A DNA stretch of 64,000 bases from Sphaerolaimus hirsutus (Eukaryota; Nematoda; Chromadorea; Monhysterida; Sphaerolaimidae): assembly GCA_964036195.1 (NCBI GenBank), contig OZ038453.1, forward strand, positions 17,831,206-17,895,205, given 5' to 3'. This document shows, piece after piece, positions 668 through 62,205 of this stretch (positions are counted from its first letter, which is position 1; each line of letters starts with the position of its first letter). The translations under genes were made by a program, and so were the position numbers. The notes under the pieces are model-generated. The model was not told where the DNA came from. It ran no database searches and saw nothing but the letters and a program-made list of their open reading frames with translations.

Positions 668-3600
668 TCATTGACTCACCGTTTTGTCTCCATTCCAATG
701 TTTTGACATGGATGTTTTTATAGCGCCGAAAATGTGCGGCAAAATGGCAATGATCAGAAACAGAATTCCAAGGACAATCAGAAGAGATTTAGCCAATAGT
801 GGGAGCTGAAATTTGTGTCTTTCACAATGTCTTCATTAAGTAAAATTGTCACACATCATAACTGACTATAACGACATTGGTTTTCATGAGTGAAGTTGAT
901 TTTTCATCAATTAAAACTTGCTCCTGGATCCATACAATAGGCTGATAAATTGTTGCATTAAGATTTTTCAGCATTCTGGAAATTTCAGTTTGTTTATTTT
1001 AAAAATGGTTCCTTCAAGAAAATATAAATACTTACAGGACATCGGTATTCTTCTCAAGAGGAATGCTCAGCTGTTGATTCAAAAGTACTTGGACAGGATA
1101 GCCGACTGTCTGAAACGTTTCAAATTTTTTGTTGTTTTGCATTTATTGTTTCAGAAAATAATTATCACTAACATCCTGCACATCCCAAAATCCAATTTTT
1201 CTAAATTCTGGATTATTTGCATCCATGCCAAGAGTGGAATGTTTCACAGAATTGTCAGCTGTTGCATAATGTGGTGCGGAAAATGCTGCATTGATGAACA
1301 TGTCTTCTCTTTTGCCTGAGTTTGGATAAAACATAAGGTCAATTAAATCCCATCTGAACAGTATATGACAAATCAAATTTTAAAATTTCAGTACTCAATG
1401 AAGGTCCTTTTATGTAAAAAAGTCATTTCGCGGACAAACTGCACTCATTCAACTGAACCTAATAATTGAGTATTTGACCAAGGAACTTTGTGAGAATGCA
1501 TTTCAATATTGCATGATCTTGAGCTGCAACTGGGAACTGATTTGGTTTGTGTAATGGGTCAGTTTTGGAAAATGGTGATCATCACAAGCATAAAAGTGGA
1601 AAGCTGCATGTGGTGTGCAATGAAATGCATTTCAATAGTCACTTTTATCAAAGTGCCCAGGTACCAAATCTAAAGTTTGCCTGAGCAAAATTTTAATGTT
1701 CATAAAAACAAAATAATTGGCAAGGCTATACTAATTTCTACAATTATTTTTGGGGGATTGAAAATTGATGTCCATAACAATCTCTGTAGTATTTATATGC
1801 ATGAAAATGTAGAATACTGTGAATCTGGCCCAAAGGGCCAGACAGGATTCTGCTAGTATACATAAAAATTATAATTCAAACCGGGCATGCATGGAATTGC
1901 TGTCAATCCATCTGGCAATTTGCCAAAGGTTGTGTTTCCCACTTTTCCTCTAATGAATCCAGTATTACCATCATATGAAGTATTGTAAACTTGCTCAGAA
2001 ACACTGTATCTGTACGCTGGTATGCCATTTATACTAGTCTCCTGTTCAAAATTCAGGGAAATTGATCTGAAAAAAAATCATAATTTTTACACCTAAAAAT
2101 GGTGGATGTGAAAATATTATTTATGTTACCTGCACCAATATGACAGAAAAACATATGGATGATATGTCTTTGAAATGAATGGCTGCTGCATTTGTCCAAC
2201 ATCTGAAAAATGTTTTTGTACACTTTTTATAAATACACCAGTGTTGTAAAAAGTACCAAACTGTTTCAAAGTATGTGGGTTCAAGAGGGGGGGGGGGTTC
2301 AGCGGATAGAAGCCAACGAATTTGGCACAGGATAGATAGCAGCTGAGCAGCATCCAGGCTAGATAGCTGGAGCATATGGGGGTAACGCCCCCCCCTCCCC
2401 CACCCCCACTCCCAACCCGTTTACTAAACCCCCGAGGAAAAGTAAAGCAAAAGTGAAAATATCTTTTTTTGTGATGGATTGACTACAGGGGGCAGTCCCA
2501 AGCCCTGTAAAGTGTAAAGCAAAGTGTCAAATGTAAAGTCAAATGCAAAGTAAAGTGTCAATCAAAACAAAAAAGAAAAGATTTTATAACTGAACTTTGC
2601 ATGACAATTGACAGTTTACTTTGCATTTGACTTTACATTTGACACTTTACTTTGCATTTGACTTTACATTTGACACTTTACTTTACACTTTACAGGGCTT
2701 GGGACTGCCACCAGGTACAGGCCCGAGTAAACACCTAAAGCAGCGTTTACACAGATGTGGCGACACCGATTCCTACACTGACTCACTTAAAAATTTATGG
2801 AACTTTTTCACTCCATTTTCTTTTCACTTCATTTTCAGGGAGGCCGTGTAAATGCTGCTAACGTTTAAGAGTTTTCAGGAAACGTTTTCAGTGCTGCAAT
2901 GATACAAAACAAGCACACACAAGTATATTGAAAATTTCACGCACCAACCAGAACCATTCAACATCCTGGCTTTTTCATCGACCCACCAATTTTCTGGCAG
3001 TGTGCCAAAATCTCGCCATTTTACAATCTCACCCAGTAAACTTGAATCATTTTGACCCGTTGCTATTTCGTAAGAACCATCGTCGCTATTGTTATACTGT
3101 GTGTAAAATAAAAGTTGACAACCTAAATTTGAAAAATTGACAAATAAAAAAATATCAACAACTAACACCATAAAAATATGCCATTTTGGGATAAAACTTG
3201 GGAAATTGTTTGCCAACAAGTTTCTTGACAATAGGAACATTGTACAAAGATAAAAGTGGGTCATCATAACCTGTGAACAGTATCTTGCCAACCTCCATTT
3301 GTCTGCATTTTTTCAAATGATAAGAGATAATATATTTTCATTCTGAAAGGTTGTCATTTATCAAATGGACCATACCTGAAAGGATATTCACCAAATAATG
3401 AAAAAGCAATATCCATGAAATTTACTTTCACATGTAGGGTCAAATTTCTGCCATATGGGTGGAATGAAATATTCTTGTCAAATGTGAACATAGCTGCAAG
3501 AAGTGGTGCCGCGCCCTAAAAAAGTGAAATTTTACAAAAATTAAACTAAAATACATAGTCGAAACAATAAAACAGCCTCACCAGAAAAACAGGATTTGGT

Positions 3601-4891
3601 CCAACAAGCACATCACCAGGTTTACATTTATCACACGATTTCTCTTCATCAAACACCCATTGTCTGTAATTCTGATAGCTGACAGTGGAATAATGTTCAC
3701 TAAATGTAATATTATGCTTTATGTCATATTGCCTGTGAAAAATTTGTAAAAATTTTGCAAAAATTCTTGTATTGACTAATACTAATTTCCATCTACCACA
3801 AATCCTCAATTTTTGTATCCCCTTGGGGGGTAATTGTTTCGCCAGACATTTTTGAGAGGGTACTATCCAAAGGGGCGGCGATTTTATTGTCAGAATTTTC
3901 AACATTATCTCTACACCTGTCATATTTACCTGTACACGTATGGCCCCACTTGCGACACAGCAGACTTTTCATATCCATCTCTAACATTTCTCCCACCAGT
4001 TTTGGGATAATTCAAAATAACTGCCCATGGATTAGTCCAGTGAAACATGTAAAATTTCATGTATTCAGTGTAAGTTGGTTTCTGCCATATTGATGCGGCC
4101 CAGTTCAATTTTCCAGTATCGTAATCAAGTCCAATTGATACTTTCTGCGATAGTTTGTGTTCATAACAGATATACTCAGTGAACATGACACTCTGCCCTC
4201 GCGCTGATTTATGTCTCATGTTGGAAGCGTGCCAATGATTATTAAAACATGCGGTTTCCGTGAAAAGATGAAAAAATACATCGGTGTGAATATGCTAATG
4301 AATAACATTTTCACAACAATCAATTTTGTCATCTCTTTATGAAACTCGCACGCGTCAACCATCGTTGGCACACTTCCAGCGGGAACCACGTGTGCAAGGT
4401 GTAAAGTAACCGGAGTATAACATAACATATTCAGGTGGTTCACGTTGGCACCGTGCCAAGGATGACTAACGCAGGCTATAATTGTTACATAGATAACGAT
4501 GGGAAACAAAAAATTCAAAAATTCGAAAACCACATTGAAATTTTTCGAATTCTTTCGCAGTTTTTTTATTTTTCACCAAATGATTTTAACACTTTTTGAA
4601 ATCGATTTTTTTCTTGAAAAGTTCGAAAATACAATTTATGAGACGGCGGGGGGGGGGGGGGGGTGACCTAATCTTTGGTGGGAGAAAAACAATTAAGGAA
4701 ACGGAAAGCATTACACCTTATAATGATAAAGATTTTCATAACAAGAAAGTATAAAAAACTCTTTAAGCAACTTTGCTAACCTCGATCACAATTGCACGGT
4801 ATATTGTTGGAAATGCAAAATAAGCGATCCCTGTAAACATGCAAACTATCAATGACAGCAAACTGCACGCAATCTGTCCAAATTTTTGCAT
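668..4891 (-). CDS. CD36 / SCARB-family scavenger receptor, 12 exons
   Basis: Complete gene rebuilt by splice sites and phase. Exons (minus strand): 4891-4781, 4144-3930, 3732-3582, 3515-3376, 3302-3169, 3122-2949, 2202-2130, 2066-1882, 1315-1173, 1109-1036, 975-867, 805-668. They total 1647 nt, 548 aa, with all phases compatible. Exon 1 encodes the N-terminal membrane anchor (aa about 8-30); exon 12 encodes the C-terminal anchor (aa about 507-526). Family signatures are clear: GPYVYR near aa 104-109 followed by NITF, VGPNP, a GYDDPLL block, MLNGSD, CRSI, GIPAYRY, C-x-PGK and a final LKNLNATIY-like segment. The large loop has several N-glycosylation sequons and Cys residues. The family binds lipids and lipoproteins at the plasma or lysosomal membrane; the ligand cannot be inferred here. 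The stop is at 670-668, but a strong GTGAGT donor just upstream (679-674) could add a further exon. Introns carry transposons, including one within 30 bp of the exon 2 acceptor. Confidence 0.93.
2490..2711. mobile_element. Introner-like inverted-repeat element in a CD36 intron
   Basis: Begins GGGCAGTCCCAAGCCCTGTA and ends in the inverted counterpart TACAGGGCTTGGGACTGCCA, with CAGG duplicated on both sides (2486-2489, 2712-2715). The interior is made of TGTAAAGTGTCAAATG-type words. Here it lies inside the larger intron 6 rather than forming the whole intron. Confidence 0.75.
4170..4439 (-). mobile_element. ATACTC-ended MITE
   Basis: About 270 bp, related to copies at 46343-46603 and 52061-52310. 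Shared blocks include GCACGCGT..., GGAAGCGTGCCAATGATTATT and ATTTATGTCTCA. It ends only 25 bp upstream of CD36 exon 2, so a long open frame here (4216-4533) is element sequence, not an exon. Confidence 0.75.
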
Positions 4892-8692: not shown

Positions 8693-8702
8693 ATGCGAGA
8701 AT

Positions 8703-9249: not shown

Positions 9250-10660
9250 TACCCTAAATCCTCGAATAAGACCCCATGGGCAGGGTTGGTTTTATAAAAA
9301 TCATTTGTATACAAATTGTATAAAAATTGTATAAACATGTATTTTATTTTTATTTTATTCTTATTTCATTTTATTTTATTTTATTCCAAAATGTTAATAA
9401 AAATATAAAATGAACCATTTTACAAAAATTTTAGAAAAATTTTACAGAAATTTTACAAAAAATCATAATCTTGCATGCAAGGCCAGAAAAATGTGATAAT
9501 TGGACCTAAAAATGAAAAATGTGTGAGAAAGTTTTCCATTACTTTGCAAAAGTTGCATGCAGTAGGTATTGTTAGCTGGTTGCAAGTGTAAAGTTACAAT
9601 TATTGATAATACTGGTTTGCATTTTCAGTAGAAGGATTACTGGAGTGTGCTGGGTGCGTTTGTAAAATGTCATGCAAAGTGTCAATTGTCATGACAAATG
9701 TAAAGTAAGGAGTCAATTGACATCTCAAATCTCAAGCTAAGTATAATTGTCATGACAAATGTCATGCAAAGTGTAAATTGTCTATCTGAATCTTATGTTT
9801 TTGTATCCAAACCTTATGTTTAGGTATCCAAATCAAATTCTTTTGTTTCCAAATGTTAATATTTTCAGATTTGGATACAAAGGATAAGATACAGATACAA
9901 TTTGCTATACAGTTTCCACTTTCATTTATATTTGTCATGACAATTGACACTTTACTTACCACTTGTCATGACAATTGACACTCTGTATTTCATTTCATAT
10001 GACATTTTGATACTTTACAGGGTCTGGGACTGCGCCAGCTCTGCGAATGAACATGTTGAACAATAAACAACAAGATAAAAATTTTACAAAAAATATGAAT
10101 TTTAATACAATTTTTACAAAAATATGAATTTGTATACAATTTTACAAAAAGTTTACAAAAATTCAAATTTTTATACTATTTTTTTTTTTTTTTGAAATTT
10201 TCCATTTTATTTTAGATTATTTTATTCTTAAATTTTCCATTTTATTTTTATTTTTTTCTGAGATTTTGCCAACCCTGCCCATGGGAGTTATTTTTTCGTC
10301 AGATGTTTGCGAGGAGGGAGTTGTTCAAGGAAGGTGGAGTTATTTTGAAGGGGGGGGGGGGCTTATTTTTTCCTCAGAACTTACTAGACTTACTTCATTG
10401 TATGGATGTAGTCTGTCAACTCATGTAATTCAGGTATTTAACTGTCCAACGCTGAAAAGATGTGTATACACTGCATACACATCATGTAATTATCTGCTGT
10501 CACTGTGGTAGGCTAATATTGTTTTGTATTGTATCCTTTTCACCAAGAGGGGGAGTTATTCAAGAGGGGTGAGTTATTCGAGGGGGAAGTAATTTTTTCT
10601 TACCTCGTAAACAGGGGGGAGTTATTCAAGGGGGGTCTTATTCGAGAATTTGCGGTAGAT
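9250..10660. mobile_element. Composite: CTCGAATAAG MITE with nested AT-rich element and introner-like copy
   Basis: Outer ends are CCTCGAATAAGACC (about 9262) and TATTCGAGAATTTGCGGTAG (about 10640). Inside, between GGGCAGGGTTGG and CCAACCCTGCCC, is a TTTATTTTATTTTA-rich foldback (about 9286-10281). That in turn holds an introner-like copy (about 9650-10040) ending GGGTCTGGGACTGCGCCAG. No gene is seen from 8.1 kb to 11.9 kb. Confidence 0.55.
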
Positions 10661-16200: not shown

Positions 16201-19200
16201 ATAGCTGCGATGTAAATTGGCAGCCATAAAACATCATGTTCATTGCAAACATGATGTATGTACCTTATTACAGATGGGGGGGGGGTGTTGAGTGGGGGTA
16301 ATTTTTTCCCCAGATCACTCAGACCTGGGAGTATTTCGAAGGGGGGTTAGTTCAAGGGGTATTTGGCGGAAGTACGGTAACATATAGCTCCTCTAAAAAA
16401 GCTCTGTTATGATATACGTGCTTAAATCGTGACTTTTATCATTGGCGCCATTTTGGCGCCCGGTGACATTTTTTATGGTGCCCTTTGGCCCCCTGGCGCC
16501 ATTTTTTCATGTTGGCGCCGTGGCGCCATTGGCGCCGTTTTTTTTGGCGCCCTTTGGCGCCCGGCGCCATTATTTTGAATGGCGCCATGGCGCCATTGGC
16601 GCCTGGCGCCATTTTTCCTGGCGCTTTTCCATCACTAACTTACAGACAATCACTAATTACAGATATTCAAGCATGGGAATTCTGCAGGATGTTGCTGCCA
16701 GGTGCCAGATTTTACTTTCCCTAAAGATTTTGTAGGGTAGGGCATGCACCCAAAATGTTTTCATGTTGCCCCAGGTCCACACACACGCACTGAGAGCATG
16801 GCAGTTTGTGAAATACATGAGTCTGCCTGGACGTCGCTGATATTGCAATATGACATGTTTTACTATGATTTTGGCCTGGAAATCATGATTTCGTTATTTT
16901 TTTGCCTGTTGGCCAACTTTCTTCTTTCGATTTTGTCAGGCAGATTAGGTACTCGCATGGTGGGCTCAGGTGGTGACCAATAAATGACGAAATTGTGATT
17001 TCTGGGCCAAAATCTAAGTAAATTAGTATATTGCAATATCGGAGACATCGAGGCATACTTTAATGTATTTTACGAATGGAACGTTGAAAATTTATCAGGT
17101 GCACACCATCCTCTACCCTACAAAATATGTAGGGTGAATTATATCTAATCCCAGGTCAATCCTGGAACAGCCAGCAGAAAATCACTAGAAGATTGGTTGC
17201 ACCGCTCTCATTCCTGTGCGTTTTGCTGTACACAATGTTTTCCAACATCATATTGGTGGATATGATCACTGTTGTAAGTCATTTTTTTGCTTCCTGTTTG
17301 CCAAAGTGGTCAGAAACATTAGAACTTATTAGAATATCCAGCTATTTAAATAAAGGATGCTAAAAACTTCTAACAGCAAACTGCAACACTTCATTTGATG
17401 TTCCACTAAGGTCAGAAAAGATACAACCATTTAAACTGAATACAGGTGCACAGGCAACCATTCACTGACATCAAATCACTGACAAATCTGATCCAGAATG
17501 GTGAAATCATTGTGGCAGACGGAACCTGGCCAGGCTCATTTTATGACAGTCTACAACATGCCAAAAGTGCTGATGAATTACTTCTCAAGGAAGCAATTGA
17601 ATCAAAAGAAGGGATTGGGATGGACTGGCATAATGATAGCCTCACCGACAACCTGAGACAAGGCACATTGACCTATGTGGATACAGCGTGAGTGTTGCAC
17701 AGGCCCTGTGCCTGTTGGCATGTAAACCATTTGGCATGTAGACAACAGACCAGGGGTTTCCAAGGTTTTAACGCTCGCGGGAGCTTTATAGATAGCTAAT
17801 CCCTCCCCAGGATGGATAGATAGCTGAAAAGTATTTTAAACAAATACAATTTTATTAAAAATAATTTTTATTCTCAGAAAAATATTCGTTAAGCGTTTAC
17901 TCACGCGATCTACATCAATACGGACGGGGGTATTTCCACAGGGGTGTTATTAATTCGCCAGCCCATTTTGAGGGAGGGGGGGGGGGTAATTCGAGGGGGG
18001 TAACTCGAGGTAATACGGTAGAAATTGTCCGACATCTTTTGAACGCTCGCCACAGCAGTGCTATTGATTTGATTCGCAGTGAGCCTGTGATTAGACATCA
18101 ATTTGCAATTGACACATGCAAACATTGAAATCTCAAAATCCATCACAAACATCAGGAGGGCCGTGGAAGCGCTGAAGAAGTGCCTGTGCGACCCCGTCAC
18201 AGTGAAATTGCCCATTGGAGGGAACCATAGCTACAAGGGTGCTTTTATGATCAGGTGCCAGTCCCAGACCCTGTAAAATGTCAAGTGTCATGCAAAGTGT
18301 CAAATGTCATGGGAAAAAAACCCTGCCCTGCAAAGTGTCAAAAGTCATGGAAAATGCCCTGCTGAAAAAACCCGAGATGCCATTTTGCAAGGCATTTTCC
18401 GTGACTTTAGACACTTTGCATGACATTTGACACTTTGCATGGTCTGGGACTGCCCCCAGTAGAAGCATGGACAAAGCCAGGACCTAAATTCACCACATTT
18501 TCGAGTGACAAGACAAATGTCAAGAAGCAAGGGAAGTTGTGTATATTGCAGTTGAAGTAAATATCAAAGTTGAACAAGTTGATTTTTGATTTACACTGGG
18601 AAAAAATATCTGTAGTTTTGGTTAGGGATGACACATTATTTTTTATAATCACTGGGGTCAAATTGACTTTTGAAATCAAAAGGCGGAACTTTTGCTAGCG
18701 TGGTATTTAAAAAAATCATGTAAAGAAATGATTCTTAGAGTCAAGCAGAGAAAAAATCGTTTTTTTCTTTCTTCAAAATTCCCAGGTATAAGCAGTAACC
18801 TGTTTCTAAATCTAGAAACCTGGTCTGGTCACTCAGCCGTGTGTGTGTACTTAGTCCACCAGGGTGGATGAACTGAACAAAGCACTAAAAGCACTGCAAC
18901 AGTTGATCGTCGCTATCGATGTGCACTACTTTGACATGGCTCCCGATAAACGCTGCAAGCCAGTTCGTTGGGGGGGGGGGGATTGGGCAGATTTACAAAG
19001 TTATGGGAACTCACTCAGAATCATCAATCAAACTTTATGGCGAATGAAGGTAGATTATACATGCAGGGACGTATCCAGGATTTTTGAGCGGGGGGGGGGC
19101 TGTTTGTTTACGGAGGCCAGCGAGAGGGGGGGGGCTCAGCCCCCCCCCACCCCTAAAATTTAAGCTACATAGTGGCTGAATGGCGCCATTAGTAGGCGCC

Positions 19201-27608: not shown

Positions 27609-27915
27609 ATGCTGTGACGACGGTCAACTAGTGTGCGTGAACGCTAACTCAGTGAAAATGTATATGAATTTTAGGCAACCGCTTTAATGGAACGCCATCT
27701 AGAAAGAGGAGCCCAGTTATAAAATGCAAAAAAATCATAACATTTTTTTAAATAAGAAAGCCCCGCTTCGCATAAAAGCACTTCCACAAGTTTTGCATAA
27801 TTCCCTTCTGACGCAAGCGACTGTTCAGTGGGGAAAAAGTAACAGAACGTTTAATAAAAAGTTCTCAGTCTAGCAAACTCCAGACAGTGAAGTTTTTCTC
27901 TTTTCTAGATTTCGT

Positions 27916-28115
27916 NNNNNNNNNNNNNNNNNNNNNNNNNNNNNNNNNNNNNNNNNNNNNNNNNNNNNNNNNNNNNNNNNNNNNNNNNNNNNNNNNNNNN
28001 NNNNNNNNNNNNNNNNNNNNNNNNNNNNNNNNNNNNNNNNNNNNNNNNNNNNNNNNNNNNNNNNNNNNNNNNNNNNNNNNNNNNNNNNNNNNNNNNNNNN
28101 NNNNNNNNNNNNNNN
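27916..28115. other. Assembly gap (200 N)
   Basis: Exactly 200 N, with AATCCCGATCCCG repeat on the right flank, which probably caused the break. Confidence 0.98.
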
Positions 28116-28119
28116 CGAA

Positions 28120-28566
28120 ATCCAAAAATTACCAATCCCGATCCCGAAAACTTTCAAATCCCGATCCCAATCCCGAGAATCTCCCAAGTCCGGGATCCCG
28201 ATCCCGGAAAAAAATAGTGGAAAATTATGAAAAGTGAAAAAAAATGACATTTTTGCATGCAAAAATGTGAACGCAAAACCCCCAGCGTCCATTTTATGTC
28301 ACTTTTTCTGGCATCCAACAGTGTTTTGAGACCTTTATGAACAACTGTGAATGCCAGAACAGTGACGAAAATCTCTATCCCCTAGACCCAAATCCTGATC
28401 CCGAAAAAAATGCCAATCCCGATCCCGATCCCGTGACCCCAATCCCGATCCCGATCCAGAAATCTCAAAATACCAATCCCGATCCCGATCCCGAAACCCC
28501 AATCCCGATCCCGATCCCGAAATCTCAAAAAGTGAATCCCGATCCCGAAAAGTCAATCCCGTTTTG
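28120..28566. repeat. AATCCCGATCCCG short tandem repeat blocks
   Basis: Clusters of CCCGATCCCGATCCCGAAA at 28130-28210 and 28375-28565, with 44340-44500 as a diverged relative. Long open frames here are repeat artefacts. Confidence 0.85.
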
Positions 28567-36535: not shown

Positions 36536-37110
36536 TTATCCGGAACAATTTGTCGGGCTGCCCAAAAACTCACTTTTCGGGTAAATCGAATACCTTACCA
36601 GACGCAATTGCTGCCACTTGCTCAGCTGCATCGCGGCTGCATGGAATTACAGCAAGAAGTTGGCCAATTAATAGTACACGGGCTGTTCTAAAAGTACCGC
36701 GCATGTGCCAGAAAATGTTTATTAGAAATACTCCAGTGCGTACAGGCTGCCAAATAATAAGTACAGTGAAAAGTAAATACAGTAGATTAACTATTAAAAC
36801 TCCCTTATGTCTCATCTACCTTGACCCTGTAATGCTCCCTGTAAAATGTTAAATGTCACAAAATTCCAATTTTCTTTGCATGAAATTTTACATTTGACAG
36901 GGCATTTCACATGAGCTGGGAGAGGCACCCACTGTCAAATCTGTCACGACCTTCATTAATTTTGGTGATTTTAGGTACACCAATGTCAATTGCAAATGCA
37001 CTTAGCAGACTGAGGTTGATATGTGCATCGACAGCATCTGGAAAATAACTGTTTCCATATGTGTGCACCAACAATTTCTTGTTTCTTAATTCAAAACTTT
37101 ATAGAGATAG

Positions 37111-39817
37111 CAAGACCATTTCAAAATAGCATTTCAATGGTTTGACGGCGGAACTTTCAGAACAGACCAAACACTCATCACTCGGAATAGGAGAAACGTT
37201 ATTGGAGCCATGTCAGTTCAAAATGGAGTTATGCAGCTCAAACAGAAGCTTAAGGATGATCTGTGTATGAATGTGTTAGTTTCATTTGGGTCTTTGAGTT
37301 ATTGATATCTTGTTCTCCACAAATAACAATAATTTTTTTCAGATTTCAGCAAAAAATCATATTTCAATGAAAAAATTATGTATTTGTGTGAAAAAAGCAG
37401 TGAAGTTTACATACTACATGAGTGCATAGTTGGTCAAACGTTATTACATTTATACTCGGCGGACAGCACACCTAATATAAAAACCTACCATAATTTAATG
37501 AATAAAATCTTGTGATAAATTTCGTAATTAATTATTCCGAAGTAAAAAAACGAAATATTATGATGAAAAACTGTAAAAATATTTGGTTCATTATTCAGAT
37601 GGGTTAGGGTAGGTTTTCATACTAAGTGTGATGTCCGCCGCGTATACTAAAAAATTGTATACTTTACTGACCCGCCATTTTCAAATAATTTGAATTCTGA
37701 AAAAAACATTTCATAATGTGTTTTCTCTGAATGCAGAATGCTGTTGTACCGAACCAGCGACAAAATGAGAATAATGGGCAGACATCCAAGAAACAATTTC
37801 AATGATTTGATGATTTATACCGGCGAAAGCATTGATAAGCACGCAAAAATACTCTGGGATATGATGGTGCTGAACTTCAAGGAGTCGTAAGTTGAACTTG
37901 TAGTTTTGAGGATGTCTGTACACATAACAATGGAGACAGCTAGGATACATTGCACCCTAGAAATACCACATACACCTACTTGTGTTGTTTTTCTGGACTG
38001 CTGGCCGGGGGAACGAAGGCCAAAACTTTTAAGTTTAACTTAAAAGTCTTAATTAGTGATGTGAAAAGCGCCACTATTGACGGAATGGCGCTGACGCCGT
38101 TGAAGGGCGCCAACGGGCGCCGCACCATGGCGCCATTGGCGCCCTTTTCCTTTGGCGCCGCTGGTGCCTGGCGCCCTGTTTCTGAATGGCGCTTGGCGCC
38201 CTATTTTCTGGCGCTTTTTCATCACTAGCGCCAAAGCAAACAGCGCTTTTGATACTTCACACCATTTTACCGTAGCGCTATTGGCGCTGGGGTTTTAAAA
38301 AGTGCTATGGCTAGTGGTGTAAAAGCGCTTTTAGCGCTAGGCGCCATTTTTATCTCCCGCCATTGGCGCTTGGCACCAAACTCGTTCACACCACCAATAG
38401 TCCTAATAGATCAGTCATTGACCCAAAAGCATTGACGCGATATTTACAAAACAGACTGTAAAAATACCAATGTATCCTCAATTACACTGCCCCAGTCTTT
38501 TTCAACACCCGACTAGTGATGTAAAAGCGCCATGGCGCTGGCGCCTGGCGCTAGCGCCAAAGCAAAAAGCGCCATGGCGCTTTTGGCGCTTAAGTCCTGG
38601 CGCTTTTTACAGCACTACACCCGACCATAACCCACCCAAATTTAACCCATTCAATTCAGCGCTGCGACAATGGGTACATCGAGCTCAGGTGCCAATCCCA
38701 GATCCTGTAAAGTGTCGTGTAAAATGTCAAATGTCATGTCAAGTGTCTAAAATCGTGGAAAATGCCCTGCAAAATGGCAAATGTACGTTTGCGATTTTCC
38801 AGTGCATTTTCCATAACTTTGCAAAACACTTGACATTTCACAGGACACTTTACAGGTTCTGTGACTGCCACCAGGATCGAGTTCAAGCGTGTCTACAGCA
38901 CAATCGTGCAAAACACAGAATGTGACAATTGCAGAAACACAGGAGAGTGAAACACAGATGCCAATGGGGTCACAGCCGCCAATGTTGGCTGAAAACGTGG
39001 AGGTTACTGTGGGCGGAAATGGGGAGAAGGGACATCTTGATAGATATGGAAATCAGATGGGTGCAGGTTATTATTCAGGTTTTTTCAGTTCTTAGGAAGG
39101 GGGGGGCGGAAATTGCGCCCCCCCCCTTTCCCGGGTGATAGTAGGAAAGTGCACCGAATCGTGATTTCGGGGTCGATTTTTAGGGTCTTTTCAAAAATTA
39201 TGCGTTAAGCGTTAAAATTAAGCGCTCATTTTTGCTTCACGCGACCGGATTTTTTTCGTCTTACCGGTCGCGCGACAGCCCTAAACTTGTTCATGTCCGC
39301 GTCTCAGACGTGTATATGTAAATATGTAAAATACATACATATACAGCGGTCTGGTGCTTATGCTAACCCCAATGGCGCTAGCGCCATGGCGCCTTTCCCT
39401 GCCGCATGGGTTAAATTTTAGGGGGGGGGGGCGCCGCATATTTTATCAAGGTTTGAATCATCAATTACGCAAAGTTTTATCACATCTCGTTTTTTTAATC
39501 AAAACAAAGTCAGAATTTTTTAATGTAAAAATAAAGTATGCATTCATTTGCATATTTACATACCCCCAACCCCAATTTCAGGCTGCAGCAAGCAAATGCT
39601 CCTGCAGGCTATCATTAACCCAGACAAGTTTGTCAATCGCTGTCCACTGTGCAATTTTACAATAAAAAATTCAGATTCTAGTCAGAGCGGTGGTGCAAAA
39701 TATTTGGAAAAATGTGTGAAGAGAAAATGTGAGTGTGATTTGGCAATGTTGTGTCATTTTTTGAAGGAACACCCTGTTGATTATATTAATGCTGTTAGAG
39801 TTCAGAAAGGTTTCTGA
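37111..39817 (+). CDS. Unrecognised gene, C-terminal exons with Cys-rich end
   Basis: Phase-compatible exons: 37111-37262, 37737-37886, 38660-38688 joined to 38875-39060, and 39582-39817 (stop TGA); 753 nt, 250 aa, N-terminus missing. Visible content: WFDGGTFRTDQTLITRN, then RTSDKMRIMGRHPRNN, a Ser/Thr-rich low-complexity segment (GTSSSGSSSSVSTA) and a terminal Cys block (CPLC, then C-x3-C-x-C and another Cys) that could bind metal. No family is assigned. The third exon is split by an introner-like element (38689-38874), with canonical AG|GT...CAG|G borders. A second frame through exon 3 is also open (RCDNGYIELRIEFKR), but its phase does not fit the neighbouring exons. Intron 1 carries a TATACTCGGCGGA MITE (37451-37648). 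Confidence 0.6.
38054..38227. mobile_element. TAGTGATG/GGCGCC hAT-like MITE
   Basis: Ends TAGTGATGTGAAAAGCGCC and GGCGCTTTTTCATCACTA. No clear duplication. Related GCGCC-rich debris continues to about 38390. Confidence 0.7.
38514..38617. mobile_element. TAGTGATG/GGCGCC hAT-like MITE, 8-bp TSD
   Basis: 104 bp, with an exact CACCCGAC duplication. It ends 42 bp upstream of exon 38660. Confidence 0.88.
38689..38874 (+). mobile_element. Introner-like element forming a complete GT-AG intron
   Basis: 186 bp. Sequence reads GAGCTCAG|GTGCCAATCCCAG...GTGACTGCCACCAG|GATCG, with CAGG duplicated at both ends. Precise removal joins a frame open on both sides. The interior is TGTAAAATGTCAAATG-type words arranged as an inverted repeat. 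Confidence 0.8.
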
Positions 39818-45280: not shown

Positions 45281-45845
45281 TCAGTCATGTCTCTTTGATG
45301 AATGCATAAGTGTTCCATTTGGAAAGCTCTGTAGTGTAGACCGGCTGCATGTTTTGTACGTTTTGGGAGAAACATTCAAAAAGAAACGTTCGAAACGTTC
45401 AAAAGTGTAACAGACTCTGTAAAGTGTAAAGACCCTGTAAAGTGTGAAACACCCTGTTAAGTGTAAAACACCCTGTAAAGTGTAAAAGACCCTGTAAATG
45501 TCATGTGTCATGTAAAAGACCCTGTAGAATATCATGTGTCATGTAAAAGACCCTGAAAAATGTTATGTGTATTCTAATATTATGTTTTTATCCAAATATA
45601 ATGTCAAAAGATAAGATTAGGATACAAAAACATAAGATTTGGATACGATAAAATAAGATTGGGTACACATGACACTTTACTTATTCTACATCACATTTGA
45701 CACTTTGCAGGGTTTTTCACATGACACGTAATTTTAAAGGGTCTTTTACAATTTACAGGGTCTGGGAGTGGCACCTGGTGTGGCCAATTCATTGTCAGAA
45801 AAGCATCAGAAGCCCTGTTCAATTGCATCGTTTAGTGTGCTGATA
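45270..45845 (+). CDS. Possible Cys-rich small gene around an introner-like element
   Basis: ATG at 45270 opens MNCNQSCLFDECISVPFGKL, with a possible donor GTACGT near 45357. After the repeat, frames open again at about 45779 (SEKHQKPCSIASF). Between them is an introner-like repeat (about 45425-45775) ending GGGTCTGGGAGTGGCACCTGG; its left terminus is diverged. The pattern parallels the better gene at 55339-56013, but no homology is recognised and the splice borders are uncertain. Confidence 0.3.
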
Positions 45846-49330: not shown

Positions 49331-49393
49331 GCAATTCAACTTCATGGAACACATACGAAAATTTTTATTAGAATATACCTAGTGGTCCCTCAG

Positions 49394-50198
49394 GTGCCGG
49401 TTCCGCAAGTGGACAAGTTAAGAGTTAAAAGTTAAGAGTTGAGTAAAAAGACAAATGGCGGGTTAAGAGTAAAGTTAAAGTTTAAGAGAAAAGTTAAAGT
49501 TTAAGAGAAAAGTTAAAATTTAAGAGAAAAGTTAAAAGTTGAGTTAAAGGTTAAGAGTTGAGTTAAAGGTTAAAAGTTGAGTTAAGAGTTAAAAGTTGAG
49601 TTAAGAGTTGAGTTAAGAGTTAAGAGACAAGTGGAAAATGAAGGTAAAAAAATATAAAAAAATAAAAATATGAAATTGGTATCGATACGGCTGTTCGCTG
49701 GCATGGTGCCAATGTTGTATGCACGTCATTTGAAAATAACGTATCCAAAAAAATTATCGCTAAAAAAAGAAAAATCGCCGAACGTTGTTTCGAAATGGCC
49801 GTGCGGGGACAAAATATTATTGAAGATCAGCGTATCGCGCTTCTGCAACGAATGACCCATTTGTCTTTTAAATCAACTTTTAACTCATCTTTTAACCTTT
49901 AACTCAACTCTTAACATTTAACTCAACTTTTGACTCAACTTTTAACCTTTAACTCAACTTTTAACTCAACTTTTGACTCAACTTTTAACCTTTAACTCAA
50001 CTCTTAACTTTTAACTCAACTTTTGACTCAACTTTTAACCTTTAACTCAACTCTTAACTTTTAACTCAACTTTTGACTCAACTTTTAACCTTTAACTCAA
50101 CTCTTAACTTTTAACTCAACTTTTGACTCAACTTTTAACCTTTAACTCAACTCTTAACTTTTAACTCTTAACTTGTCTACTTGCGGAACTGGCCCCAG
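49394..50198. mobile_element. Large introner-like foldback with TTAAGAG/AACTCAAC minisatellite arms
   Basis: 805 bp. Borders CTCAG|GTGCCGGTTCCGC and GCGGAACTGGCCCCAG|GAC, with CAGG duplicated. The left arm is (GTTAAGAGTTAAAAGTTGA)n, the right arm its complement, and the centre holds a 61-codon frame (49670-49855) judged non-genic. The ends match the smaller introner-like family though the interior is unrelated. Confidence 0.7.
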
Positions 50199-50423
50199 GA
50201 CGTATGGTGAAATTAACGTTTTTGGTGACATATCATCTAATTACCTATACAATTTTCCACAATGTTTATCACTTTAATAGCTTTAATTAGCAAGTGATGA
50301 CAGAGATATATTGACGTGTTTTTTCTACTTTTTTCCAATGAAAATTGGTTTAAACGTCATTCCAAACATGCGCTTAGTCGAACCAGAAGAAGGCAGTCTA
50401 TTTGCATAGTGGGAGGTATAAAA

Positions 50424-55338: not shown

Positions 55339-56013
55339 GCCAGAAAAATATTGTCCAAACTTCACCAACACCTGCCGCGAAGGGGCGCGTCTATCCGCAG
55401 GAGTGATGTGCTGCGTGCTGCATGCAACAAATGACCCCACCCTTGGTGCCACTCCCAGACCCTGTAAACGACCCTGTAAAGTGTAAAAGACCCTGTAAAG
55501 TGTAAAAGACCTTGTACAGTGTAAAGCACCCTGTAAAGTGTAAAAGACCCTGTTAAATGTCATGTGTCATGTAAGAAACCCTGTAAAATGTCATGTGTTA
55601 TGTAAAAGACCCTGAAAAAGTGTCATGTGTATCCAAATCATATTTTATCGTGTTTTTGACATAAGATTAGGATGCAGAAACATAAGAATTGAATATGATA
55701 AAATAACATTTGGATACACATGACACTTTACAGGGTCTGTTACATGGCACATGACTGACATTTTACAGGGTCTTTTACATGACACATGACGTTTTACAGG
55801 GTCTTTTACACTTTACAGGTTCTTTTACAGGGTCTGGGAGTGCCCCTTGGTGTTGTCATGCCGGTTTACCCAGCTAGCTTTGAACTGTGCAAGAAGTATA
55901 AAGCGCATACTTGTGATCCTTCAGTTAATTGTAATCATGAGCAAAATTGTATACAATGTGAAAAGGGTAGGAAATGTTGCGATGTTTCATTCAATGTTGG
56001 TGTATGTATTTAG
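55339..56013 (+). CDS. Cys-rich protein gene fragment with introner
   Basis: Exon A 55339-55445 (C-x6-C, then CC: KYCPNFTNTCREGARL, VMCCV) and exon B 55874-56013 (LCKKYKAHTCDPSVNC, then C, C and CC) ending in TAG; phases 1 to 1 match. The repeated C...C...CC pattern suggests a disulphide-rich extracellular domain, but no family is named. The N-terminus and signal peptide were not found. The two exons flank an introner-like element. A canonical acceptor exists at 55873 (TTTACCCAG|CT). Alternatively, excision by the TTGG duplication would add nine residues (GVVMPVYP-like) in frame. Opposite-strand frames here are judged shadows. Confidence 0.5.
55446..55849 (+). mobile_element. Introner-like element, long subfamily
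   Basis: Starts GTGCCACTCCCAGACCCTGT, ends ACAGGGTCTGGGAGTGCCCC, with TTGG duplicated. The interior includes a GATAAGATTAGGATAC-like core, also in the copies near 45600 and 9800. Confidence 0.78.
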
Positions 56014-56692: not shown

Positions 56693-59600
56693 TCACGGCC
56701 GCAAAATACCGCTCGCAAAAGTCACGAGATCCACGGGCACTATCAAATGCAATATCCACCATTTTGAACCTCCGAAAGCCTTTCTATAGTTCCCAAATTC
56801 CAGCTGATAAAACTGTCTCAGTCTATGGTACTCAAATGAAGTTGTGTCAGTCAAAATGAAAAAATTAGCCATGAAGAATTGATGTGTTGCCATGCAGAAT
56901 GCCAGGGGGCAGTTCCAGACCCTGTAAAATGTCCTGTAAAATGTCAAATGTCATGCAAAGTGTCAAAAGTCATGTAAAATGCTCTGCAAACTGAGAAACG
57001 TGATGGCAAACGCAATTTTGCCATTTTCCAGATCATTTTGCATGACTTAAGACACTTGGCATGTCATTCTACATTTTACATGATGTTTGGCACTTTGCTT
57101 GACTTTTTACATTTTACACGGCATTTTACAGGGTCTAGGACTGGCACCAGAGATGCGCAGTGCAGCAAGACAACTTGGCACATTTGCACAAATGTCGCAT
57201 AGCCGAGAATGACGTAAACTTGGGTGGCTGGAATCATGAATATAGTCCAACAGAATGTGCCGAGCTGCGAAAATTGTTTTGGTGTGTAGGAGATTTTGGT
57301 TAGGCGCCTAAGATCCTGCTAAACGGTTGAAAGATTTTGAATGTGCTGTGCTTACATGCAAAGTACATTCAACAGTTGAACAAGTAGTAAATAAGTACCC
57401 TCGTATAAATATACCCATCAAACTTCTGGGAACCCTGCAGAGTTGTTAAAATACCGGTATTTTTGGAAAGCGTAAATACACTTTTCGAATTTTGAGTATG
57501 GATACTAAAAGCGTAAGGTTTTTTTGAAAATACCGAGGAAAGCGTAAAAAAAGCGTAAGCGTAAAAATTTGTTTTCACAAGTGCTCGCGCTGTTGAGCAT
57601 TGGAAAACACCATTGTTTTCACTTTTAGATGATTGAAAAACTTTGTACTGACGATTGTGTTGATTTTGACCCTATAAACACTAGGTAATTGACAATGCCA
57701 CCAAATGTCAACTAGTTCTGATCCCAATCCAAAGATTGCTCACAAGTAGCAATATGCATTTTGGTATACACATATACATAGCTCATGCCAGCCTTTAACA
57801 TGGCACATATGTATAATACCACAATATTTTTTAAAGGCTGCAGGTCATTTGCAACATGATCAAAACTTTTGCATTTGAAAACCATTTATACGCTTGTCAG
57901 GAAGTTTTGATTTGAGATTGGAACCAATTGACATTTAGTGTCATTGTCAAGTATGTGTCTACGGAATTTGTCGTCGGATCCATTTCACCAGCCCCAAAAT
58001 ATCACACGATCAAGTACGCATTGAATACACTTTCATGTATTGACACATTTCATACATGTATCCCTATTTCCAGTGCAAAACTGCATGTTTAGAGCTTCGG
58101 CTGAAAAATTTACGCTTTCTGTACCCGGGTATTTAAGCCAGGAAAGCGTAATAAAGCGTAAGGGTATTTTTTGAAAGCATAAGCATAACCGTAAGTATAA
58201 ATACCCATTTACCCGGGTATTTCGGGTAAGCGTAAATACGCTTTCGCAACTCTGGAACCCTGGGACATGGCTCTGTTTTACGCTTTTGGGAAAGTATAAA
58301 ACAGAGTCATTTACACAAAAAACCATACACATGTATGCACTGAAAATCTGTCTCTTATGAAATTTGTGAATACAGTCAATTTGTATATGATTGTCGTGAA
58401 GTTTTTGGGCTTTTGAAATGGATTCCAATGTCACCACCGTCGACAATGCAAGTTAAAATATTAATTAATTCATCCAAAAGTGAAAATGATAGTATTCCAG
58501 TGCTTAAAGCCGGAATTACAGCTCAGCGGCGTTTGACGTGAAATGATGACGTCGTAAAATTGATTACATCAAAATAGACATAGGTACAGCGTTGAAATTT
58601 CAAAATTTAATAGTTCTAGTAATTGTGTGTAATGTCCTAAAAAAATAAAGAAAATAATTATTATTTAATAAGTTATTAATTTTACATCAAAATTTACACA
58701 TTCTACGTCAACATTTCACGTCAAACATTTTACGTCACCAAAAAATTTTGACGATCAAGTAATAACTACTTGAATAATGATTATTTGGTAAAATTTTTTT
58801 GGGACATTACACACAATTCCTAGAACTATCTAATTCTGAAATTTCAATGCTGTACCATTGTGTATTTTGATGTAATCAATTTTACGATGTCATCATTTCA
58901 CGTCAAACGCCACTGAGCTGTAATTCCGGCTTAACAGTGAGAGCACTCTCTAAGAAAACTTTTACGCTTACGTTTTTTTATGCTTTCCTTGGTATTTTAA
59001 GAATACCTCATGCTTTATTATAAATACTCATCATTGGGAAAGTGTATTTACGCACAACACTGCTAAACACTACTCACCTCATATCCTGACAGAAAAACCA
59101 CATAATAGAGTAAACAAAGGCCGCCATAAGTCACTCCGATCCACAACCACAGTGTAAATGCAACAAAATATTTCTGATTTCTCAAACCGATACATTTCCC
59201 AACGAAGAAACAATGGTGGTCCCTTTTTAGTATGCAAGTGCCGCAGATTTTGCAGTGATGCGAACGGGGCACTTTGAGTAATTTGCACTTTTTGCAGCAT
59301 TCGGTACAAGTGTCGCCCGAGGCGGCATTGGTTTCTGTCTGGAAAATGTTAAATGGTGTGCTTCTGAGTCCTGATCAAAAAGGCGACATTTGGCAAAAAT
59401 TTTGAAACACCGTGCGGCGCCAACAGAAACAGAGAGTGAAATTACACCTATGCAAACTTACATAAGATACGTTACAGCAGAGTTGTTGAAAGTACCAAAC
59501 GTTTCTCAAAGTAATTTATTTTTACGCACCCCTGAGTACCGAAAACGTAAAGTAAAAGTTTTGACTTTTACACTGCGTAAAAGATGAGTACCGTATTACC

Positions 59601-60941: not shown

Positions 60942-62205
60942 ATGAATGAAAGATCCCTACCTCCAAGTGATTTCAGACAGAAAACACTTATCCCGAGCTC
61001 AAAATTTTTCTCACTATTGTTATTTGCAATGAATTTGGCAGCCTGCTGTGTGATTGTGAAGAATTTGCCGAAACACCTGTATCACCCATATTATTTGGAA
61101 GACGGAACCTACAAGAAGCCTGCCTATTTCTACAGAGGTATTTTTGCCGATTGAACAGATTTCTTACATTATACAACTAGTGTATGCCCTCGAGATAACT
61201 TAATTATGCCTCAGATCTGAGTAAGCTATGGAGTAAGCTTTTATGATTATTCTCCACTATATAAATGCAAAAAAATACGCCATGGATTTTTATTGACACT
61301 TTTGATGGAGGATAATAATCATCTCCCTTTCAAATAATCTCTTGGGGGGGGGGGCAAGAAACAACAGAACCTGTAAACAGACCTGTAAAATGTCAAATGT
61401 CATGTAGTGTCATAAGTAATGTAAAATGCCCTGTAAAATGTCAAAGAACCAGTAAAAAATGAATTAAAATTTGACATTTTAAATGATTTTTGACACTTTG
61501 CATGACATTTGATATTCTACAGGGAATTTTTACAAGGTCTGGATTTGATACCTTAATTAATCACCCCCAAATTCTGCTAAATAGCAAAAGCTGCTGCATT
61601 GTTCAAAAGCCAGTTCCAAATAAATATTTCAAGATTAGATGATAAATACATGTTTATCCTTTTTCCCTCAGGGAACACAAAAGGTGCTGCAAAACATGAA
61701 GCAACACTGACAAAATGGTCAGAAGTGTCCTATGCTCGCACTGTGTTCAAAAGTGATATTATCATAACCATACTTATCATACTTATACTGATTACTGAAA
61801 AGTGGCTTTGTTCCATAATGGTGACATGTGTGACTGCTATGACCTTTCTGAAATTGGTGAGAAATCGGGTTATTCAGATTTGGTACTATCACCTTTTAAA
61901 AAAAAGATTATTCCAGACTAAATAAACAGCAATGGTCAAATACACCCTTGCACGGTTTACAGGCAGTCAGTTCAGCCCTATTCATTGAAATGACAAAATA
62001 TGGATGGTATTTTGAGTCACCACTGGGCGAGAATGCAACATTTGGCATTTGGCTGTGCACTTGGGCAAAGATTGGTGCATTGGCATTGTGCCCAAGTATC
62101 GGTGACAACATTTGCAGGGCTGGTTATCCACTGACACCATGTGAAAGTAGGGATGAGATTGTAAGGAAGGCTAGAAAAAGTGATAGTGATAATGGTTCCG
62201 GGTGA
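60942..62205 (+). CDS. Four-TM membrane protein, 3 exons, unrecognised
   Basis: Exons 60942-61137, 61672-61856, 61963-62205; 624 nt, 207 aa, phases 1 and 0 match. Hydrophobic segments at aa about 23-41 (FFSLLLFAMNLAACCVIV), 94-108 (DIIITILIILILIT), 112-136 and 154-172. A loop after TM1 has HPYYLEDGTYKKPAYFY; the C-terminus is charged and Ser-rich (SRDEIVRKARKSDSD). Family not recognised. The start is the first in-frame ATG. Intron 1 contains a degenerate introner-like repeat (about 61365-61545). Confidence 0.75.
61365..61545. mobile_element. Degenerate introner-like repeat in four-TM gene intron
   Basis: CCTGTAAAATGTCAAATGTC words with an inverted counterpart, ending ACAAGGTCTGGATTTGATAC. 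Terminal GTGCC and CACCAG are not preserved. Confidence 0.5.

Follow-up and report, generated by a model that had tools for sequence, protein, structure and literature searches.

The origin of new introns is a long-standing question, and introners have seldom been reported from animals. The question is raised again by a stretch of 64,000 nucleotides from the nematode Sphaerolaimus hirsutus (G000:C4:17831206-17895205, part of a 348-Mb genome; the whole stretch is called the window here), in which short inverted-repeat elements recur with similar ends, GTGCCAGTCCC and GGGGCAGTCCC. The original prediction read these elements as a family of introners, four window copies of which would be whole or nearly whole introns. 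Are they introns, and how could an insertion become one? The elements form a family of non-autonomous DNA transposons (MITEs) that duplicate a 3-bp CWG target. This short, near-perfect palindromic transposon appears to produce a new intron on landing in a protein-coding exon, presumably through splicing.

Copies in the window

The 16-base end GTGCCAGTCCCAGACC was found 13 times in the window at up to 3 mismatches, against a mean of 0.14 and a maximum of 2 in 100 shuffles, so the repeated ends are real. The predicted elements were borne out, at 2489, ~9653, 18255, 38689, 50451, 55446 and 56906, as were one-ended or degenerate ones near 36815, 45405 and 61350. They are arranged as follows, beginning with the element under study.

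38689..38871, + strand: studied element, GTGCCAATCCC...GACTGCCAC, with CAG flanks on both sides and an open frame on removal
38686..38688, + strand: 5' copy of the CAG target duplication (from the sequence)
38872..38874, + strand: 3' copy of the CAG duplication, predicted 3' splice site (from the sequence)
2489..2711, - strand: copy with its GTG end and CTG duplication read on the - strand, adjoining - strand CD36-family exons
9653..10036, - strand: copy with a degenerate left end (left end by eye, start approximate)
18255..18456, + strand: copy with exact GTGCC and CCCC ends and a CAG/CAG duplication
~36815..36928, no strand assigned: degenerate copy (by eye)
~45405..45774, - strand: copy with an intact GTGCCACTCCC end on the - strand and the other end degenerate
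50451..~50644, + strand: copy with 5' flank CTG and a degenerate 3' border, without a clean 3' duplication (right end by eye)
55446..55846, + strand: 401-bp copy with a TTG/TTG duplication; its flanks resemble a cysteine-rich coding exon, by eye only
56906..57147, - strand: copy with a CAG duplication on the + strand; a coding-looking frame on the + strand, by eye, puts it in the minority orientation
~61350..61551, no strand assigned: degenerate copy (left end by eye)

At 38689, the frame is open after removal of the element, as had been proposed, and the CAG at 38872-38874 would complete a GT-AG intron spanning 38689-38874. The intron status proposed for four window copies was not confirmed: the joined flanks of the copies at 18255, 38689, 55446 and 56906 (two frames each) gave no Pfam match near the cut-off, in a scan of ten proteins of which two came from L033 and L079, outside the window. 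A codon model applied to the window called four weak segments, all of them more than 150 bases away from any element; it also missed the CD36 exons, and the window therefore cannot test the intron idea by that model. Each window copy may be an intron, part of an intron or intergenic, and the support for copies being introns comes from elsewhere in the genome. An Rfam scan of the 64-kb window returned no match.

Other features of the window include the exons of a CD36-family gene at 2875-4294 on the - strand, with the element at 2489-2711 lying just downstream, and an array of 12- and 19-bp units beside its own inverted copy at 49393-50209. A second repeat family with a TACCGTATTTCCTCGAAATACCCCC-like end occurs at 8702, 42508, 43058, 43859 and 59589. 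There is a run of N at about 27900-28200, and the window holds 400 N in total.

Family size and sampling

Genome-wide, a 19-base inner end gave 6,613 + 6,561 matches (13,174 at up to 1 mismatch), and its reversed control gave 0. As these matches are ends, two per copy, they suggest a family of several thousand copies. The copies sampled were the places listed first on contig C1 (0.97 to 10.34 Mb) plus the window, which is not a random draw. Both flanks were available for 95 copies, and 79 were left after non-GT starts and repeated flanks had been dropped, nearly all of them located below 10.4 Mb on a single contig. Near flanks were identical or near-identical among L042, L043 and L044, between L058 and L060, between L059 and L061, and between L046 and L047; these elements lie about 33-66 kb apart on C1 and point to segmental or tandem duplications.

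Element anatomy and target duplication

The consensus is 189 bp long, with one GTGC end, one CCCC end and an 88-bp perfect inverted repeat. The TGTAAAATGTCA interior mentioned in the original prediction corresponds to one half of a palindrome covering the whole element. With the GTG end set to the left, 74 of the 95 copies start with GTGCC and 51 finish with TGCCCC. The two ends are thus unlike, end A being GTGCC and end B, read inward, GGGGC; because they differ, an insertion reads CWG-GTGCC...GCCCC-CWG along one strand.

In the 95 copies, whose flanks were unselected, the flanking triplets were CAG/CAG in 24, CTG/CTG in 21, CTG/CAG in 9 and CAG/CTG in 1, the others being mixed or decayed. 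Pairing of exact ends on C1, restricted to CAG or CTG ends and reaching 32.06 Mb of 33.97 Mb for end B plus CAG, gave 21 CAG/CAG, 16 CTG/CTG, 3 CTG/CAG and 0 CAG/CTG among the matches listed; 37 of these 40 two-ended exact copies therefore carry concordant duplications. Across the genome, exact end A follows CAG 850 times and CTG 722 times, and exact end B precedes CAG 989 times and CTG 732 times. The concordance of the triplets, both in the sampled copies and on C1, establishes a CWG duplication 3 bp long. The 4-bp CAGG duplication originally claimed is ruled out by CTG, TTG and CAG-without-G cases: the real duplication has 3 bp (CAG, CTG or TTG), and the next G reflects a target preference.

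Orientation in coding flanks

Flanks were scored with a codon model that was seeded blind to strand, cross-validated in five parts and applied to the 79 non-redundant copies. Coding flanks were found in the sense orientation (GT...CCCC) and in the antisense orientation at ratios of 23:0 with 60 nt of flank, 29:3 with 90 nt and 27:4 with 120 nt. L046 and L047, which have near-identical flanks, account for two of the three antisense calls made with 90 nt. All 29 sense-coding copies have GT, as follows from a set chosen to start with GT, and 16 of the 29 have a 3' CAG. At 90 nt, 10 of the CTG/CTG copies were called sense, none antisense, and 10 went uncalled. An earlier codon model, which had been seeded with eight sense examples and trained on the same copies as it tested, called 22-30 of the 79 copies sense-coding and 0-5 antisense over 12 settings; CCWGG control sites from the same loci were coding on either strand in 22-49 of 355 cases (6-14%).

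At 90 nt, the flanks of 47 of the 79 sampled copies were not called coding. Since most sampled copies lack coding-called flanks, the element is to be regarded as a MITE whose exonic insertions give rise to introns, and not as an intron-only element. Exonic copies are alike from one border to the other.

Proteins restored by removal

Joined sequences were made from the flanks by leaving out the element and one copy of the duplication. For ten copies, Pfam or PDB matches cross the resulting junction. Pfam families run through it in Oscp1 at two sites of one gene (L022 at 3997 and 4820), in the cation-ATPase C-terminus (L084), E1 dehydrogenase (L069), xanthine/uracil permease (L070) and ETF-QO (L089), and in a C2H2 protein whose join has one extra residue, which disappears if the border is TTGCAG. 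Searches with phmmer against PDB chains were gapless at the junction for Na/K-ATPase (L085), BCKDHA (L069), AMPK-gamma (L036), STAG (L024) and ETF-QO (L089). An eleventh copy, L015, has leucine-rich repeats on both sides with normal spacing by eye.

The eleven copies comprise four with CTG/CTG borders (L022 at 3997, L036, L069 and L070), two with CTG/CAG (L024 and L085), four with CAG/CAG (L022 at 4820, L015, L084 and L089), and L023. The GT end lies upstream in all of them. L084 and L085 are about 5 kb apart, in an order unfit for a single gene. No family was found in 5 of the 10 joined frames of the first Pfam batch, nor in 5 of the 10 of the second, where L085, later matched in PDB, was among the five and one more frame fell below the cut-off.

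A less selected Pfam test, limited to longer joins (61 of 78 sense and 53 of 78 antisense) and with copies matched by family name, yielded 12 families from the 61 sense frames, corresponding to about 10 copies, and 5 families from the 53 antisense frames, corresponding to about 4 copies. Judged by sequence, those antisense copies are L046 and L047 (both PI3/PI4-kinase, and the pair whose flanks are nearly identical), L065 (UBM) and L051 (a zinc finger). By eye, the PI3/PI4-kinase and UBM matches stop near the junction, and that of L051 spans it, making this copy a genuine exception to the orientation rule. In L065, the element lies beside a UBM-motif exon on the opposite strand, and its end may sit at the acceptor of that exon (by eye).

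On the strength of the orientation of coding flanks and of the conserved proteins rebuilt by removal, the introner reading is supported for the family as a whole, with splicing as the presumed means. That part of the original prediction has gained its support from copies outside the window, through the orientation bias, the enrichment of coding flanks over CCWGG sites and the protein matches that cross junctions.

CTG borders

At 732 of the 1,721 exact 3' borders genome-wide the triplet is CTG and not CAG. A CTG target leaves no AG at the 3' border, so that exact removal would need GT-TG splicing. An AG is available in TTTTACAG, 19 nt upstream of the border, and its use would shift the frame. 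Rare GT-TG introns are described in man (PMC4176328).

Stop-free, frame-keeping GT-AG pairs were sought in the ten CTG/CTG copies taken as coding, with donors from -15 to +60, acceptors from -60 to +33 and the first eight pairs listed per copy. Nine of the ten had such pairs, with smallest net changes of 0 nt (L036), -3 (L086), +6 (L014, where the option has a good exonic donor), +9 (L005) and +18 to +51 in the other five; L069 (BCKDHA) had none within the searched range. A shared GT-AG solution was rejected, as among the pairs listed none is common to all ten and a +63-nt one recurs in four. Removal at the borders is the only solution that all ten have in common.

Mixed borders are asymmetric, CTG/CAG exceeding CAG/CTG by 9:1 in the 95 copies, 10:1 after border refinement and 3:0 on C1. 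This excess fits selection for a T to A change that creates an AG, with a small difference between the ends genome-wide: CAG makes up 57.5% of exact 3' borders and 54.1% of exact 5' borders, a weak difference (p = 0.050). The median divergence of coding copies from the consensus is 0.085 for CTG/CTG (n = 9) and 0.091 for CAG/CAG (n = 8), and from this similarity it follows that the coding CTG/CTG copies are not simply new.

Predicted hairpin structure

The consensus is predicted to fold into an 88-bp stem with a 5-nt loop (-164.6 kcal/mol), the only other unpaired bases being the first four and the last four. In 22 coding copies, the predicted mean chance of being unpaired is 0.25 for the donor, 0.47 for the 3' border, 0.05 for the internal ACAG and 0.10 for the internal GTAA; 33 other copies fold like them.

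Pairing was also examined in 44 aligned copies of 160-200 bp. Stem positions are paired in 90.0% of cases, compared with 87.9% after shuffling and 28-42% when the arms are slid, and cells with double changes number 70 against 23.6 in shuffles. The same 12-nt deletion is found in both arms of 7 copies, in one arm only in 4 and 5, and in neither arm in 28. Selection on RNA pairing after insertion was considered and rejected, since single transitions that keep a GU pair (89) are not in excess of those that break pairing (95), nor are they in coding copies (29 and 33). In the absence of such an excess, the hairpin is taken as inherited from source copies.

Proposed mechanism

The proposed course of events starts from the oriented insertion. 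On the coding strand, end A would place a GT donor precisely at its border, and the 3' border would be formed by the second copy of CWG, so that a CAG target would give a seamless GT-AG intron and a CTG target a CTG border. Loss of the element with one copy of the duplication would return the exon without any base change, and the spliceosome is the presumed agent of this removal. Copies ending in CTG would be cut at the same borders (GT-TG), or would be made efficient by the T to A change. Taken as a whole, with the family, its duplication, the sense bias, the restored proteins and a presumed spliceosomal removal, the explanation by an introner-making CWG MITE is considered highly probable.

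In RNA, the element would form a long hairpin whose stem would hide the internal GTAAA and ACAG, with nothing exposed but its two ends, GUGC and CCCC-C(A/U)G, and we infer that this hairpin may steer splicing. A more far-reaching version, in which the transposon would be pre-adapted as an intron, its hairpin hiding the internal splice signals and the host precisely removing both GT-AG and GT-TG versions, is put forward only tentatively; if true, the host would use hundreds of GT-TG introns of known origin.

The family would be informative in several ways. Insertions into CAG and CTG, made by the same element in the same orientation, are natural replicates with which to gauge the weight of the 3' AG. 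The family also suggests, in testable form, how mis-splicing of a palindromic transposon might be avoided. Finally, the CWG duplication would link the birth of introns to one defined group of transposons, in which the target by itself can provide the 3' splice site.

Alternative explanations

The copies could belong to an ordinary MITE with an insertion preference for genes or GC-rich DNA, with the exonic ones being recent, harmful or heterozygous, and unspliced. The 47 of 79 copies without coding-called flanks, the GC-rich target preference and the missing AG at CTG-bordered copies agree with this. However, such a preference does not account for an upstream GT end in 23 of the 23 copies called coding, or in 29 of 32; coding-flank CTG/CTG copies, at a median divergence of 8.5%, are much like CAG/CAG copies and not obviously new; and a single Oscp1 gene (L022) carries two copies. 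We consider this account very improbable. A spread of the elements as RNA by reverse splicing, each carrying its own 3' CAG along, is less credible still: it would suit the observation that a 3' CAG is combined with other 5' flanks (CTG, CCG, AAG) more often than the other way round, but the concordance of 37 of the 40 exact-ended C1 copies among the matches listed, 16 of them CTG/CTG, is what a DNA transposon would give.

Within the preferred explanation, by an introner-making MITE, two steps have competitors of their own. Exonic copies with CTG borders might be cut at internal or nearby GT-AG sites, changing the protein slightly, as the frame-keeping combinations in nine of the ten tested copies would allow and as the codon-adding introners described in Aureococcus (PMC9860276) exemplify. 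This appears rather unlikely: no combination among the pairs listed serves all ten copies, L069 has none in the searched range, the net-0 option of L036 swaps six exon-coded residues, and the predicted fold leaves the internal ACAG unpaired for only about 5% of the time. The palindrome, in turn, might be a property of the transposon at the DNA level, a fold-back kept perfect by template switching, with no role in splicing. The twin 12-nt deletions and double compatible changes, which look inherited from source copies, together with the missing excess of GU-keeping changes after insertion and the like folding of coding and other copies, speak for it. Against it, the consensus stem stops exactly where the splice-site ends start, and the two ends differ at bases 2 and 4 in a way that both makes the GT and opens the stem. 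The chances of this reading seem evenly balanced.

Relation to known systems

Introners with terminal inverted repeats (TIRs) and target site duplications are reported from Micromonas, Aureococcus, Symbiodinium and others, and only two animal groups with introners are given in the survey concerned (PMC9860276). The present family shares with them the repeated elements, the terminal inverted repeats, the short target duplications and the restored exon, as well as an arrangement in which the element may bring one splice site and the duplication the other. It differs in its 3-bp CWG duplication, its whole-element hairpin, its many CTG ends and its animal host.

The hairpin introner elements of Amoebophrya have 3-5 nt direct border repeats, 8-20 nt inverted repeats and very diverse splice sites (PMC7789003). 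Short direct border repeats, hairpin-forming inverted repeats that could bring the exon boundaries together and varied splice sites are common to both, whereas the present elements form one family with an 88-bp consensus stem, a GT donor and a CAG or CTG 3' border. In the nonconventional introns of euglenids and diplonemids (PMC11170887, PMC12621601), pairing likewise joins the ends and a MITE origin has been suggested. In those introns GT-AG is described as missing from one end or from both, and their removal may be independent of the spliceosome, in contrast to the GT donor of the copies counted as coding here. The non-canonical introns of the tunicate Fritillaria (PMC13326754) also belong to an animal lineage with relaxed splice sites, and introner transposons are named as their possible source; unlike there, the three complete ordinary introns read here, all in the AMPK-gamma gene, are GT-AG by eye. 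A search of the freely accessible literature on introners (with Harbinger, with hairpin, and since 2023) and on NuwaI, in which most papers were judged by title, retrieved no description of the present family.

Judged by its CWG duplication and GGG end, the family would most closely resemble NuwaI, a group within the PIF/Harbinger-related PHIS superfamily. NuwaI is characterized by a CWG duplication and by TIRs that usually start with GGG, and was confined to animals in the survey that described it (PMC4482050). The CWG duplication is shared, and so is the GGG start at end B (GGGGC); end A (GTGCC) departs from it, starting with the GTG that would be the donor. The likeness derives from the duplication and the GGG of end B, not from a transposase, and intron making is not mentioned for NuwaI in the sections of that source considered here.

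At least 163 matches to the DDE_Tnp_4 (PIF/Harbinger-type) transposase occur in the genome. Many of those listed, such as C1:20514088-20514720, cover the same 633-bp span with four in-frame TGA, which points to a family that spread recently and has an intron or insert. That the transposase carries an element-sized insert, an idea prompted by the 633-bp span, is not claimed: read by hand, the consensus contains TAA stops in two of its frames and only one TGA in the remaining frame. Separately, the sequence G000:C762 (14,754 bases), which holds L096, is small and very AT-rich and has the look of a mitochondrial genome by eye.
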